Positions 23,501 to 29,656 of a DNA stretch of 41,066 bases are shown here, in pieces. The translations under genes and the position numbers were made by a program. Source of the DNA: a virus. The notes beneath the pieces are model-generated. The model saw nothing but the letters and a program-made list of their open reading frames with translations, searched no databases and had not been told where the DNA came from. The DNA lies in the IMG/VR virus record IMGVR_UViG_3300038441_000589, positions 1-41,066 of that record; one strand, 5' to 3'. Numbering within the stretch: position 1 is the stretch's first letter; the number at the start of each line of letters is the position of its first letter.

Positions 23501-23859
23501 AGGTATTTCTCGAAGCCGTCAGCAGGGAGCGAGAGGGAACCGAGATAGTCTTGATAGCCGTGATGAATCAGCGCGGCCTTGATGCGTGTGACGCGATCGA
23601 CTAGCGGCAAGCTGATGGACTGGCCGTCCCAAATGCGCAGCGCGAGTGCGTTCATCGTTGCGGCGGCTGATTCTTCGGCCTCGCGGCGAGCGGCTTCCTT
23701 GGCCTTTGCTTCGGCCTCGGCCTGCTCCTGCGCTGCGCGTTCCTCTTCGGCCTTTTTCGCTGCCTCGGCTTGCGCAGCAACTACGGCCGCATCAGCTTCC
23801 GGTTGCGCAACCACCTCTTGCGCCGGCTGCTCTTCGACCTTCTTTTTGCCCTTGGTCAT
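23497..23859 (-). CDS. Ala/Glu-rich coiled-coil protein between terminase and portal
   Basis: A 120-residue protein. Residues 1-65 are a low-complexity Ala/Glu/Lys/Gln coiled coil; residues 66-120 form a compact segment (MNALALRIWDGQSISLPLVD, then YQDYLGSLSLPADGFEKYL). It overlaps large terminase and portal by four bases each. It could be a packaging or connector accessory protein, but there is no recognised domain. Its composition gives long false frames on the opposite strand. Confidence 0.65.
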   Translation of the reverse strand: MTKGKKKVEEQPAQEVVAQPEADAAVVAAQAEAAKKAEEERAAQEQAEAEAKAKEAARREAEESAAATMNALALRIWDGQSISLPLVDRVTRIKAALIHHGYQDYLGSLSLPADGFEKYL

Positions 23860-25268
23860 ACGATTCCTCTGTTGTTGATTGGAACTGGTTTATCCCATCC
23901 AGCCGGCTTGTTTGTTCCGGCTCTGTCACTTGCAAATGTCAGCAACCACGCATCGGCCAGATTGGGACTCTTCACGCCGCGCGCTTTCATCTCATCCTTG
24001 CCTTCGACCTTGATCAGCCCGTTCGACATCACCTTGTAGGTTGGCGTTGTTAGCTCGCCTATCAACTCGTCGTCGTCACACAGATGACAGTCCATCGATT
24101 CAAGCCACTCGCGGCCCTTCCACCACAGTTCATCGCGCAATCGGGAGAACTGTCGTTCGCCAGCATTCACCGCTGCAGCCTCGGCAACGTTGACGCCATA
24201 AACCGGCAGGTTGAGTTCCGTCAGGCGGTCCACCACGCCAGCGCCAATGCCGATCACATCGATGTTGATCGAGGCGGGCCGCTTCTTCTCTGGCGTTGCA
24301 TCCCACTCAGCCTTAATCAATCCGGCTGTCTGCATCGTGTCCTTGCCGTACCATTCGCGGGCTTTTTCAATCTGGTGATTACCCTGACGCTTCGCCAGCG
24401 CGGTAGAGTCATCGCCGAAGCGCGCCACATCCAGCCCCCAGATGATCGGAGCCTTGGCATTCAATGCCACCTCGCGAATCTTCGCGGCCTCGCACAATTC
24501 GAGCGAAATAACGCCGTCAACAGCGGCTGCAAAATCGCCTCTCACACGGACCTTGTAGATGGATGATTCGACGCCATACTTTTTCCTCATGCTTGCAACG
24601 TAGGCTTTCGACACGCGCTTGCATGTCTCGCCGTTTACATGGAGCGCCCCCCATTCAGCACGCATCTTGTGATGACTGTCGAAGAAGTAGCCGCTTTGCC
24701 GCGTGGGGTTTGCAGCCATGACCACAAAAGCGCCGTCCGTCGATAAGGCGCCCTCGGCAACCTCGAACACGTTGTCTGAGACGCCCGATGCTTCATCAAT
24801 CAGGAACAGGATGTTTTCAGAGTGGAAGCCTTGCAGCGCTTCCGGCTTTTCCGGCCTGGATGTTCGAGCAACCGCGAATGATTCACTTGGGTTCGACTTC
24901 AACTTGAATGAACCCGCCGACCATTCAAATTCACTACCAAGCGCCGGCAAGTTATCCGACAGAATGCGATGCCACTTCGCTAGCTCTGCCCACAGCACGT
25001 CTTCCAACTGGTGGCCCGTCGGCGCAGTCGCAGGCACCTTGCACGGGAAATAGCAGATGCAGAACCACAGAATGCACCACGCCATGAACGTGGACTTGCC
25101 AACGCCGTGGCCGGATCGGATGGACAGCTTGCGGCGCTCGACAAGTATCTTGCTCGCCGTCCATTGCCATTCATCTGGCTCAGCCCTCAGCGCTTCCTTT
25201 GCAAACTGTGCCGGTCCACCTTCACGCCAGCGTTTAATGGCCTTTTGCGTCGGCGTCAGCGGCTTCAT
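23856..25268 (-). CDS. terL: Terminase large subunit
   Basis: A 470-residue packaging motor. The N-terminal ATPase has Walker A SGHGVGKST (residues 52-60) and Walker B ILFLIDEA (Asp158, Glu159), followed by the coupling motif AANPTR near residue 186. The C-terminal RNase-H-like nuclease has its expected acids in IIWGLDVARFGDD (Asp280), INIDVIGIGAG (Asp337) and SPNLADAWLL (Asp439). It overlaps the small subunit by 35 bases and the next gene by four. Packaging by a headful mechanism is likely but not shown. Confidence 0.95.
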   Translation of the reverse strand: MKPLTPTQKAIKRWREGGPAQFAKEALRAEPDEWQWTASKILVERRKLSIRSGHGVGKSTFMAWCILWFCICYFPCKVPATAPTGHQLEDVLWAELAKWHRILSDNLPALGSEFEWSAGSFKLKSNPSESFAVARTSRPEKPEALQGFHSENILFLIDEASGVSDNVFEVAEGALSTDGAFVVMAANPTRQSGYFFDSHHKMRAEWGALHVNGETCKRVSKAYVASMRKKYGVESSIYKVRVRGDFAAAVDGVISLELCEAAKIREVALNAKAPIIWGLDVARFGDDSTALAKRQGNHQIEKAREWYGKDTMQTAGLIKAEWDATPEKKRPASINIDVIGIGAGVVDRLTELNLPVYGVNVAEAAAVNAGERQFSRLRDELWWKGREWLESMDCHLCDDDELIGELTTPTYKVMSNGLIKVEGKDEMKARGVKSPNLADAWLLTFASDRAGTNKPAGWDKPVPINNRGIV

Positions 25269-27428: not shown

Positions 27429-27494
27429 CTAAACCGGCATCTCAAGCCTTACCCTCTGCGGTCCAGCTTCGGGCAGCTCTTTGCTGAACTTCAT
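27429..27494 (-). CDS. Possible 21-residue peptide after the helicase gene
   Basis: A short frame, MKFSKELPEAGPQRVRLEMP plus one residue, starts with an ATGA overlap of the helicase stop behind AGGGG. The overlap and charged sequence suggest a tiny gene. The rest of the 100-base gap to the next gene is empty except for its ribosome binding site. Confidence 0.35.
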   Translation of the reverse strand: MKFSKELPEAGPQRVRLEMPV

Positions 27495-28408
27495 AGGCCC
27501 CTTGCAATGCCCCTGCGGGCGTTCTTGTTGAAGTCCGAGAACTTGAGTGCAGCGCGGTCGTACCAGAGCTTTACGCGGCCTTCCCAATCGCCATTACGGT
27601 TCTTGTCGCAAATCAGCAAAGCGTCTGCCGTGTTCTCGTCCACCTCTTTCCCGGCATCCCGGTCACGCTCTTTGCGTTTGTTTCTCCAAACCAACAGAAC
27701 GTTGTCCACCAGATCGGAAATTGCTGCGGTGCCAGAAATGTCCATCCTGGTTGGCATGCGCTCGTCGCCCTCGCCCTTCTTGAGGTGAACGACCAGGTGA
27801 ATGTGGATGTTGTAGTCGCGTGCACAGGAGGTCAGCATGTCCACGAAATCCTTTTGGCTGTTGTAGTCGTCGGTGCCGCGTACGCATTTCATGAGGCTGT
27901 CGATGGCGATGTGCTTCACCTTCAGCTTTTCCGCGCAGTGCTTGATGACCGCGATCATGCGTTCCGATTTGATGGTGCCCTGCTGGTCGTAGAGCCAGAT
28001 TTTCCCGTCCGTCTGCTTCATGAACGACGAAACCTGATCCTTTGTCGGTGTCGCATATCCGAATTCCTGCCGCATGATTCGGGCGAGCGTCTTGGCTGGC
28101 GTCATCTCGAAACTGGCGATGCAAACCGTCTGGCCTGCTTTGGCGATGCCGGTCATCACCTGCCCTTGCAGTGCGGATTTACCGGAACCATTGAACCCAC
28201 CCCATACCGTCACTTCTCCCGGAGCGAATTCAAGCCATGCATCTGCAAACGGCAGCTTTGGATTTTTCGATTTCTCAGGAGCGTCAGCAGGCGCCAGGAT
28301 GTGCATCACCTCGTTCAGGTAGGCGCTGGCTGGCCGAACCTTTTCCGCCGGCTCTGTCTCGGCCATGTACTTTTCAAAATCGATATCGTCTGGTGTCAGG
28401 ACTTCCAT
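27491..28408 (-). CDS. DnaB-type replicative helicase (RecA-fold ATPase)
   Basis: A 305-residue SF4 helicase lacking the usual N-terminal domain. Walker A is VWGGFNGSGKSAL near residue 70; Walker B is KHIAIDSLM near residue 168. A third motif, IHLVVHLKKGEGDE, and the late segment LLICDKNRNGDWEGRV match ring helicases of the DnaB/T7 gp4 class. With the DUF1376 protein it probably forms the phage replication initiation pair. ATG 28408 is preferred to GTG 28417 because the ribosome binding site is correctly spaced to it. Confidence 0.85.
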   Translation of the reverse strand: MEVLTPDDIDFEKYMAETEPAEKVRPASAYLNEVMHILAPADAPEKSKNPKLPFADAWLEFAPGEVTVWGGFNGSGKSALQGQVMTGIAKAGQTVCIASFEMTPAKTLARIMRQEFGYATPTKDQVSSFMKQTDGKIWLYDQQGTIKSERMIAVIKHCAEKLKVKHIAIDSLMKCVRGTDDYNSQKDFVDMLTSCARDYNIHIHLVVHLKKGEGDERMPTRMDISGTAAISDLVDNVLLVWRNKRKERDRDAGKEVDENTADALLICDKNRNGDWEGRVKLWYDRAALKFSDFNKNARRGIARGL

Positions 28409-28758
28409 GCTTTCCACTCTCCTCTTTCGTATTCGATGACTTCCCCGTTGTTCAACGCCATGGCAATGACGTGTGTCGCTCCTGCATTTGCCGCTGTTTC
28501 TGCCAGCGTTATCGCTTCGTCCGTCAGCTCTTGGGCTTGCAGATGAACCCGAATTCCTGCCAGGAATCGCAGGTCAAGATGCCCTCCGAGTTCTTCCGGA
28601 AGCACGTACACGCTCGGCAAAATCTTGTGATCCAAGGCTCGTTCCGGGTCTTCAAAAACGAACCTGTGTGGTGTCGGACTCATGCCAGCAAGCAGGAAAA
28701 CCGCTGTCGGTTTCCACCCGTTCTTCCGTGCTTCGATGATTTGCATGTGTCCGATCAT
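28396..28758 (-). CDS. Hypothetical replication-region protein (120 residues)
   Basis: A mixed alpha/beta protein (QIIEARKNGWKPTAVFLLAG, LPEELGGHLDLRFLAGIRVH, then an Ala-rich helix). It begins five bases after the initiator gene and overlaps the helicase start by 13 bases. Because it lies between initiator and helicase, it could be a helicase loader in position, but it has no ATP-binding motif and is small. Function unknown. Confidence 0.65.
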   Translation of the reverse strand: MIGHMQIIEARKNGWKPTAVFLLAGMSPTPHRFVFEDPERALDHKILPSVYVLPEELGGHLDLRFLAGIRVHLQAQELTDEAITLAETAANAGATHVIAMALNNGEVIEYERGEWKAWKS

Positions 28759-28762
28759 GTCG

Positions 28763-29656
28763 CTACCCGAAAGGATTCAGATCGCTGCCTGGACGTCCTT
28801 CAGGATCGCCATCAAGCCACCGCTGTTGGTTGATGTACGTGATCGGTGCAGGCTCGAAGCCTTCAGCCCAGGACTTCGTTTGCTTCATCTTTTCGACGTG
28901 TTCAACGATGCGAGTAGCGATGTTCTCCAAGCCCTTGCCTTTCCACTTTTTCAAGCAATCGGCTTTCGCAACCTTCCGATCGCTTTTCGGCCAGACCTCC
29001 CAGAACTCGGCGAAGCCGGGGGGGATGTCGTGCGACTTGTCGCACATATGTTTTTCTTTATATCCCTGTCCCTTCCCTTTACTGTCCCTTGTACCCTTTG
29101 TCCCTGGGGACATTTCGGGGGACAATTCCGAGACAACTCCGGGACTAACTTCATTTGTCCCCGGGGACAAACCGCGTTCGTCCCCTTTGGTCGGATCGAC
29201 ATAATTAGGGGACATGAACTCATCGAACGTGGGATATGGGATGCTGGTGTTGTGGCGCTGGTTGTGTTTTTTGATGCGGCCGCACTCTGATCGCCAACGC
29301 TGTTCGTGCTTTGCCTGCCAGGCGTCGCGGGCCTTCTCAGCAACGACCGGATGATAGAGCCTGCCGTCGGCGCACTTGATCCAACCATAGAGCGCGCCGT
29401 CCTTGACCTTCTTCCACTCCTTCACGACGAAGCCAAAGCCGGCAAGGCGCGCAAGCTCGATATCATCGTCAGGTAAAGAAGCAGCGGGGACTTGGTGCCA
29501 CGAAGCGCACCACAAGATCACGGCGAAGAAACATTGCGCCGGGGGCACATGCGAAACCAGCTTGCTATCGCGCAGGCGACCAACATCCAGCGGCATGAAC
29601 TGGAAATCGCGCAGATCGCAATCCGCCGGCGTCAGGGGCGATGGCAATTCATTCAC
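28763..29656 (-). CDS. DUF1376-type replication initiator-like protein
   Basis: A 297-residue protein. The N-terminal domain matches DUF1376 (FQFMPLDVGRLRDSKLVSH, VILWCASWHQVPAASLPDDD, DGRLYHPVVAEKARDAW). A Ser-Pro-Gly-Thr-rich linker (about residues 160-200) follows, then a C-terminal domain (FAEFWEVWPKSDRKVAKADC, AEGFEPAPITYINQQRWLDG) common in phage replication proteins. The start is GTG 29656, overlapping the previous stop as GTGA. The linker DNA is packed with GTCCC/GGGAC repeats, a candidate origin, as in lambda O. It probably recruits the helicase encoded nearby. Confidence 0.8.
   Translation of the reverse strand: MNELPSPLTPADCDLRDFQFMPLDVGRLRDSKLVSHVPPAQCFFAVILWCASWHQVPAASLPDDDIELARLAGFGFVVKEWKKVKDGALYGWIKCADGRLYHPVVAEKARDAWQAKHEQRWRSECGRIKKHNQRHNTSIPYPTFDEFMSPNYVDPTKGDERGLSPGTNEVSPGVVSELSPEMSPGTKGTRDSKGKGQGYKEKHMCDKSHDIPPGFAEFWEVWPKSDRKVAKADCLKKWKGKGLENIATRIVEHVEKMKQTKSWAEGFEPAPITYINQQRWLDGDPEGRPGSDLNPFG
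29044..29214. other. Candidate replication origin inside the initiator gene
   Basis: Repeats of TGTCCC(C) occur on both strands. Three direct copies lie at 29067, 29083 and 29099 (exactly 16 bases apart); inverted copies GGGGACA lie at 29106, 29118 and 29208; a perfect 16-base palindrome TTGTCCCCGGGGACAA lies at 29155-29170. A T-rich stretch borders them at 29044-29065. Iterons beside an AT-rich segment within the initiator gene is the lambda origin layout. Confidence 0.6.

Follow-up and report, generated by a model that had tools for sequence, protein, structure and literature searches.

The iteron origin of this phage very probably lies at 29030-29214, inside the linker-coding part of the phage's own initiator gene, and would be bound by the initiator encoded there. 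This candidate-origin reading, put forward in an initial annotation, is strongly supported by comparison with related genes, in which the repeats are scrambled among reading frames, switch to other words at a fixed place and persist in non-coding DNA. The same features bear out the accompanying claim that the DNA repeats shape the protein, and the protein sequence of the linker would most likely be a by-product of the DNA elements. The window, that is, the whole stretch of DNA analysed, is itself a virus record of 41,066 bases.

The initiator gene (28763-29656, minus strand) encodes a DUF1376-family putative replication initiator of 297 aa. A Pfam profile scan placed it in PF07120 (35.0 bits against a cut-off of 30.1, E 2e-8) and returned DUF1376 only, with no match to Phage_rep_O (lambda O) or to RepA_N (PF06970). 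In the PHROG search, the protein matched phrog_22470 'replication protein' (E 1.6e-40), and its C-terminal part matched phrog_9474 'replication initiation protein'. It consists of a winged-helix-like N-terminal domain (residues ~1-150), a linker (~161-213) that is predicted to be disordered and is low in complexity, and a C-terminal domain (~215-285). The AlphaFold2 model, built with 84 relatives (an earlier prediction from eight sequences was poor, with a pLDDT of 52.6), gives a pLDDT of 93-98 for residues 1-150 and mostly below 60 for the linker. The initiator has no sequence relatives in the PDB, and fold searches with the N-terminal domain placed the staphylococcal plasmid initiators 4pql, 5kbj, 4pt7 and 4pta on top, although these matches are weak (Foldseek E 0.38; Z 4.0-4.7). 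In the A1 alignment, the half of the protein after residue ~215 is of different types even in close relatives, and since the C-terminal domains behind the linker vary in this way, the linker may represent a junction for module exchange. Two genes after the initiator, in the same operon, follows a DnaB-like helicase that would presumably be the one loaded there (27491-28417, minus strand; PF03796 DnaB_C, E 3e-14; phrog_239 DNA primase/helicase, E 1.7e-52). The 120-aa protein encoded between them (28396-28758, minus strand) has no match in Pfam, PHROG or NCBIfam.

The iteron array (29099-29214) is composed of TGTCCC/GGGACA words in both orientations. Exact words start at 29067, 29083, 29099, 29107, 29119, 29156, 29164 and 29209, and one-mismatch variants are found besides these eight at 29141 (GGGACT) and 29179 (CGTCCC). 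Inverted pairs form the two 14-bp palindromes that had been described, TGTCCCTGGGGACA at 29099-29112 and TGTCCCCGGGGACA at 29156-29169. At least eight TGTCCC elements had been claimed for about 150 bases; eight of the 20 words of the window indeed fall within 148 bp (29067-29214), which is beyond chance. Over the window as a whole, the word shows no enrichment (20 against 17.5 expected), and it is the clustering that represents the anomaly: among 20,000 uniform placements, the maximum was four words per 155 bp, compared with the eight observed, and GGGACA ranks first for clustering among all hexamers of the window. Likewise, none of 20,000 synonymous-codon shuffles of the initiator gene gave eight words (mean 1.5). 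The words in this gene occupy all three frames and both orientations. The array lies more than 440 bp inside the gene, within the DNA encoding the disordered linker; the initial annotation, too, had placed the repeats in the linker-coding part. The 16-base spacing that it reported is real for the words at 29067, 29083 and 29099, but the first two belong to a G-rich tract and not to the iteron array, and 16 bp is rejected as the iteron period, the phase of the family being 11.3 bp and the main repeats 22-23 bp. GC skew along the window shows no clean switch at the repeat site, and the orientation of the operon confounds its reading.

Relatives were gathered from viral contigs, a motif-only DNA scan and genomes, leaving 146 non-redundant genes, 85 of which carry the same kind of array, made up of four or more words when tandem tracts are left uncounted. 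For the GGGACA-type genes, 57 representatives less than 80% identical in the DUF1376 domain were compared with an expectation derived from their own proteins and codon usage, and they contain 394 words against 78 +/- 7 expected after synonymous shuffling. As in the initiator gene of the window, these words occur in every frame and in either orientation. Distances between words of the same orientation show a phase of 11.3 bp (vector strength 0.71, n=565), and taken modulo 3 they are distributed almost evenly. Most often, the words are arranged as the 14-bp palindrome TGTCCCNNGGGACA, with half-sites 8 bp apart (122 pairs), recurring at 22-23 bp, and the word spacings found in relatives are 22-23, 45, 57 and 8 bp. 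Neither 22 nor 23 is divisible by three, so that the encoded peptide changes from one repeat unit to the next. Judged from these sequence comparisons, the repeats inside the initiator gene are selected as DNA and not as protein.

Two natural situations extend this picture. In prophages of Paraburkholderia solitsugae and P. haematera (L174, L175), the DUF1376 ORF ends after the domain, yet both the TGTCCC units and the GGGANA tract, which is rich in purines, carry on into DNA where every forward frame contains stops. The two prophages differ by a 22-bp indel, exactly one repeat unit. Since repeats and tract are kept here in non-coding DNA, the function of the DNA is separated from that of the protein. 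Other relatives carry different words at the same place, namely CGGAAA (Comamonadaceae and others), GTGACA and CGTTAC (mostly alphaproteobacteria). Iteron classes were assigned by the authors from the top clustered hexamer, and on a DUF1376-domain tree of 101 genes, based on a short alignment and with many forks not settled, the four word classes need seven changes, a number never as low in label shuffles for the large classes. Such tracking of the domain tree by the words is expected if the DUF1376 domain reads them. In 22 of the 101 genes, from Pseudomonas and Methylobacterium groups, there is no clear word, and most of them keep the G-rich tract. Conservation of the repeats in relatives thus holds in that no close relative keeps the protein without them, but distant ones swap the word, and this Pseudomonas/Methylobacterium-type subset departs from it.

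Directly after the iterons on the coding strand, a GGGANAGGGANAGGGA-like tract is present in all word classes. In the window, this G-rich tract is GGGTACAAGGGACAGTAAAGGGAAGGGACAGGGA (29063-29096, minus strand), and it holds the words at 29067 and 29083. Within the tracts of relatives, glycine is encoded by GGA in 378 of 404 codons, compared with 439 of 2621 elsewhere. The translation is GQGQGQ in most genes, GTGTGT in L167 and L219, and RDRDRD in L258, L061 and L161; the last of these is the closest relative (domain 92% identical), with RDRDRD where the window has GKGQG. In L217 and L218, the period of the tract is 5 bp. Among viral contigs, 24 contain the pattern TTAAGGGANAGGGANAGGGANAGGGA; in 21 of them, a DUF1376-type domain lies in the same ORF, and a further two, truncated by the contig end, have the same linker. 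The reversed pattern was dropped as a control, all five of its matches being again DUF1376 genes. A tentative proposal, to which slightly less than even chances are given, is that the (GGGANA)n tract constitutes an origin element in its own right, near-universal in DUF1376 replicons and not tied to the iteron word. On the coding side of the A+T-rich segment, it would provide a single strand rich in G, either holding the origin open (as a G-quadruplex, or as an R-loop from early transcription) or directing helicase loading. If so, the KGQGQGQ, RDRDRD and GTGTGT linkers of phage replication proteins would be a translated origin signal.

The tract is followed by an A+T-rich segment (TATAAAGAAAAACATAT on the coding strand, 29046-29062), which is a candidate unwinding element. 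Among 122 relatives, the A+T content reaches 65% and then 53% in the successive 10-bp bins after the tract, compared with ~35% elsewhere, a sharp peak at a fixed place adjoining the repeats. The T-rich segment of the initial annotation (A-rich on the coding strand) is present beside the repeats, and no other part of the gene is as rich in A+T, but it is short and ordinary for the window. Next to it, the perfect inverted repeat GTGCGACTTGTCGCAC (29030-29045) is a hairpin candidate. Of 120 relatives, 27% have a hairpin with a stem of at least 7 bp in this position, compared with 5.8% of synonymous shuffles and 1.2% of other gene windows. The stems vary among about 30 relatives, in which the fold is kept, and the tetraloops are often TNNC (TAAC, TGAC, TAGC). 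A C-run after the A+T-rich segment was also considered as a separate element (C5 in 29 of 123 genes against a background of 3.6%), but it was discarded, as proline codons show no strong CCC bias.

Taken in sequence, these elements suggest how initiation might proceed. The N-terminal winged-helix-like domain would bind the TGTCCC/GGGACA half-sites, which the 11.3-bp phasing would place on one face of the helix, and build a nucleoprotein complex. The resulting strain may open the neighbouring A+T-rich segment of 20 bp. The G-rich tract, in which the strand rich in G is the non-template (coding) one of the leftward early operon, may help to hold the opening as a single strand, a G-quadruplex or an R-loop. 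The C-terminal domain would then recruit the DnaB-like helicase encoded nearby, and the downstream hairpin could perhaps serve as a loading or priming site.

Phased arrays of palindromic half-sites are also typical of operators, and this one sits inside the operon. The words could accordingly be sites through which the DUF1376 protein or another regulator controls the replication operon, with no role in an origin. This is nevertheless unlikely, given that the array lies more than 440 bp within the gene, that the G-rich tract and the A+T-rich segment nearly always come next and that the word travels with the DUF1376 domain. It is possible that one array doubles as origin and autoregulation site. 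The variable C-terminal domains behind the linker, which would make it a recombination joint, could also point to some other cis site, involved in packaging, partition or recombination for the swapping of initiator modules. The probability of this is very low: packaging genes are located elsewhere (terminase large subunit at 23856-25268 in the PHROG search, away from the array), and class-specific words follow the adjacent, putatively DNA-binding domain, as fits a site bound by that domain.

That the repeats are meaningless as DNA, having arisen from the low complexity of the protein linker or through microsatellite slippage, has next to no probability. The linker is disordered and of low complexity, and its GQGQGQ tracts do resemble 6-bp slippage, but the words appear in every frame and both orientations, the tract is read in different frames, the signal is lost on synonymous shuffling and the array and tract persist without coding in L174 and L175. 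A source of the repeats at the level of the protein or in slippage was rejected on this non-coding persistence, the frame changes and the 394 words against 78.

The distribution of the motif beyond this gene was surveyed in 2.9 million viral contigs with a scan for TGTCCCNNGGGACA accompanied by a third word, which yielded at least 80 loci; in 53 of the 80 loci listed, which are not a random sample, the cluster lies inside the linker of this DUF1376 family. The reversed motif gave 15 stretches in all in the same scan. The remaining loci listed include a YdaU-like gene (L064), and one non-family ORF of the set matches PF07120. GGGACA clusters are also present in other putative initiator genes, one of Lin1244_N type (L066:892-940) and one encoding another winged-helix-like protein (L103:6328-6466). 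Clusters of the TGTCCCTAGGGACA type occur in or near intergenic DNA beside a large gene (L067:7921-8091, L068:3523-3695, L070:615-809, L077:258-439 and L115:67-225), and PriCT_2/AAA_25 primase-helicase matches are found in the set holding these loci. Intergenic clusters beside large genes of primase-helicase type are plausibly iteron origins of unrelated replicons that share the word. The high-GC loci L079, L107, L109, L110 and L120 contain 53-68 GGGACA words in 9-14 kb, with 13-18 in 200 bp, and could represent a transfer or other repeat-binding system. The ORFs scanned in loci other than those of DUF1376 include DUF2637 and FtsK/SpoIIIE-like matches.

The literature searched contained no origin for the DUF1376 family and no GGGACA iterons. 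With this proposal, DUF1376, filed as a domain of unknown function, would gain a role as an origin-specific initiator, and an origin place and word are proposed for about a hundred phages and prophages. As the word has switched several times in nature next to a conserved, putatively DNA-binding domain, the recognition rules of this domain become open to testing. Additionally, the linker offers an example of a low-complexity protein segment dictated by overlapping DNA signals and visible from sequence data alone.

Among known systems, the Francisella phage KIRK has a putative iteron origin inside a phage replication gene, known from prediction only (PMC7924643), with another protein family and other repeats. 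The Rac prophage of E. coli has an active origin, oriJ (PMC3945230). Its YdaU resembles the initiator of the window in being encoded by a DUF1376 gene whose linker contains repeats, although of a different word, TGTTCA/TGAACA. In E. coli K-12, the ydaU linker (L270:3978-4077) holds four such words against 1.1 expected, a moderate excess reached by 38 of 5000 synonymous shuffles. This linker is a candidate position for oriJ; no open text was found that places oriJ in ydaU. In lambda, several short iterons lie in the middle of gene O, where the initiator complex forms and the helicase is then recruited (PMC3985674). The parallel with the lambda origin within O, drawn in the initial annotation, holds for the architecture, with iterons in the middle of the initiator gene in both. 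It does not extend to the protein, which belongs to DUF1376 and has no Pfam match to the O family. Moreover, the lambda iterons are four 19-bp repeats, whereas here 6-bp words form 14-bp palindromes that recur at 22-23 bp, accompanied by a G-rich tract, and lambda has the P loader where the window phage encodes a DnaB-like helicase instead. In pSK41 Rep, the Rep boxes bound by the N-terminal winged helix lie in the central part of the rep gene; the linker that this origin encodes is dispensable, and contacts with the replication machinery are made by the C-terminal domain (PMC5703833). Although the window protein lacks PF06970, and hosts, word and G-rich tract set it apart, it shares with these staphylococcal RepA_N plasmids, with a weak fold match, the arrangement of an N-terminal domain (winged-helix-like in the window protein), an origin-encoding linker and a C-terminal partner domain.
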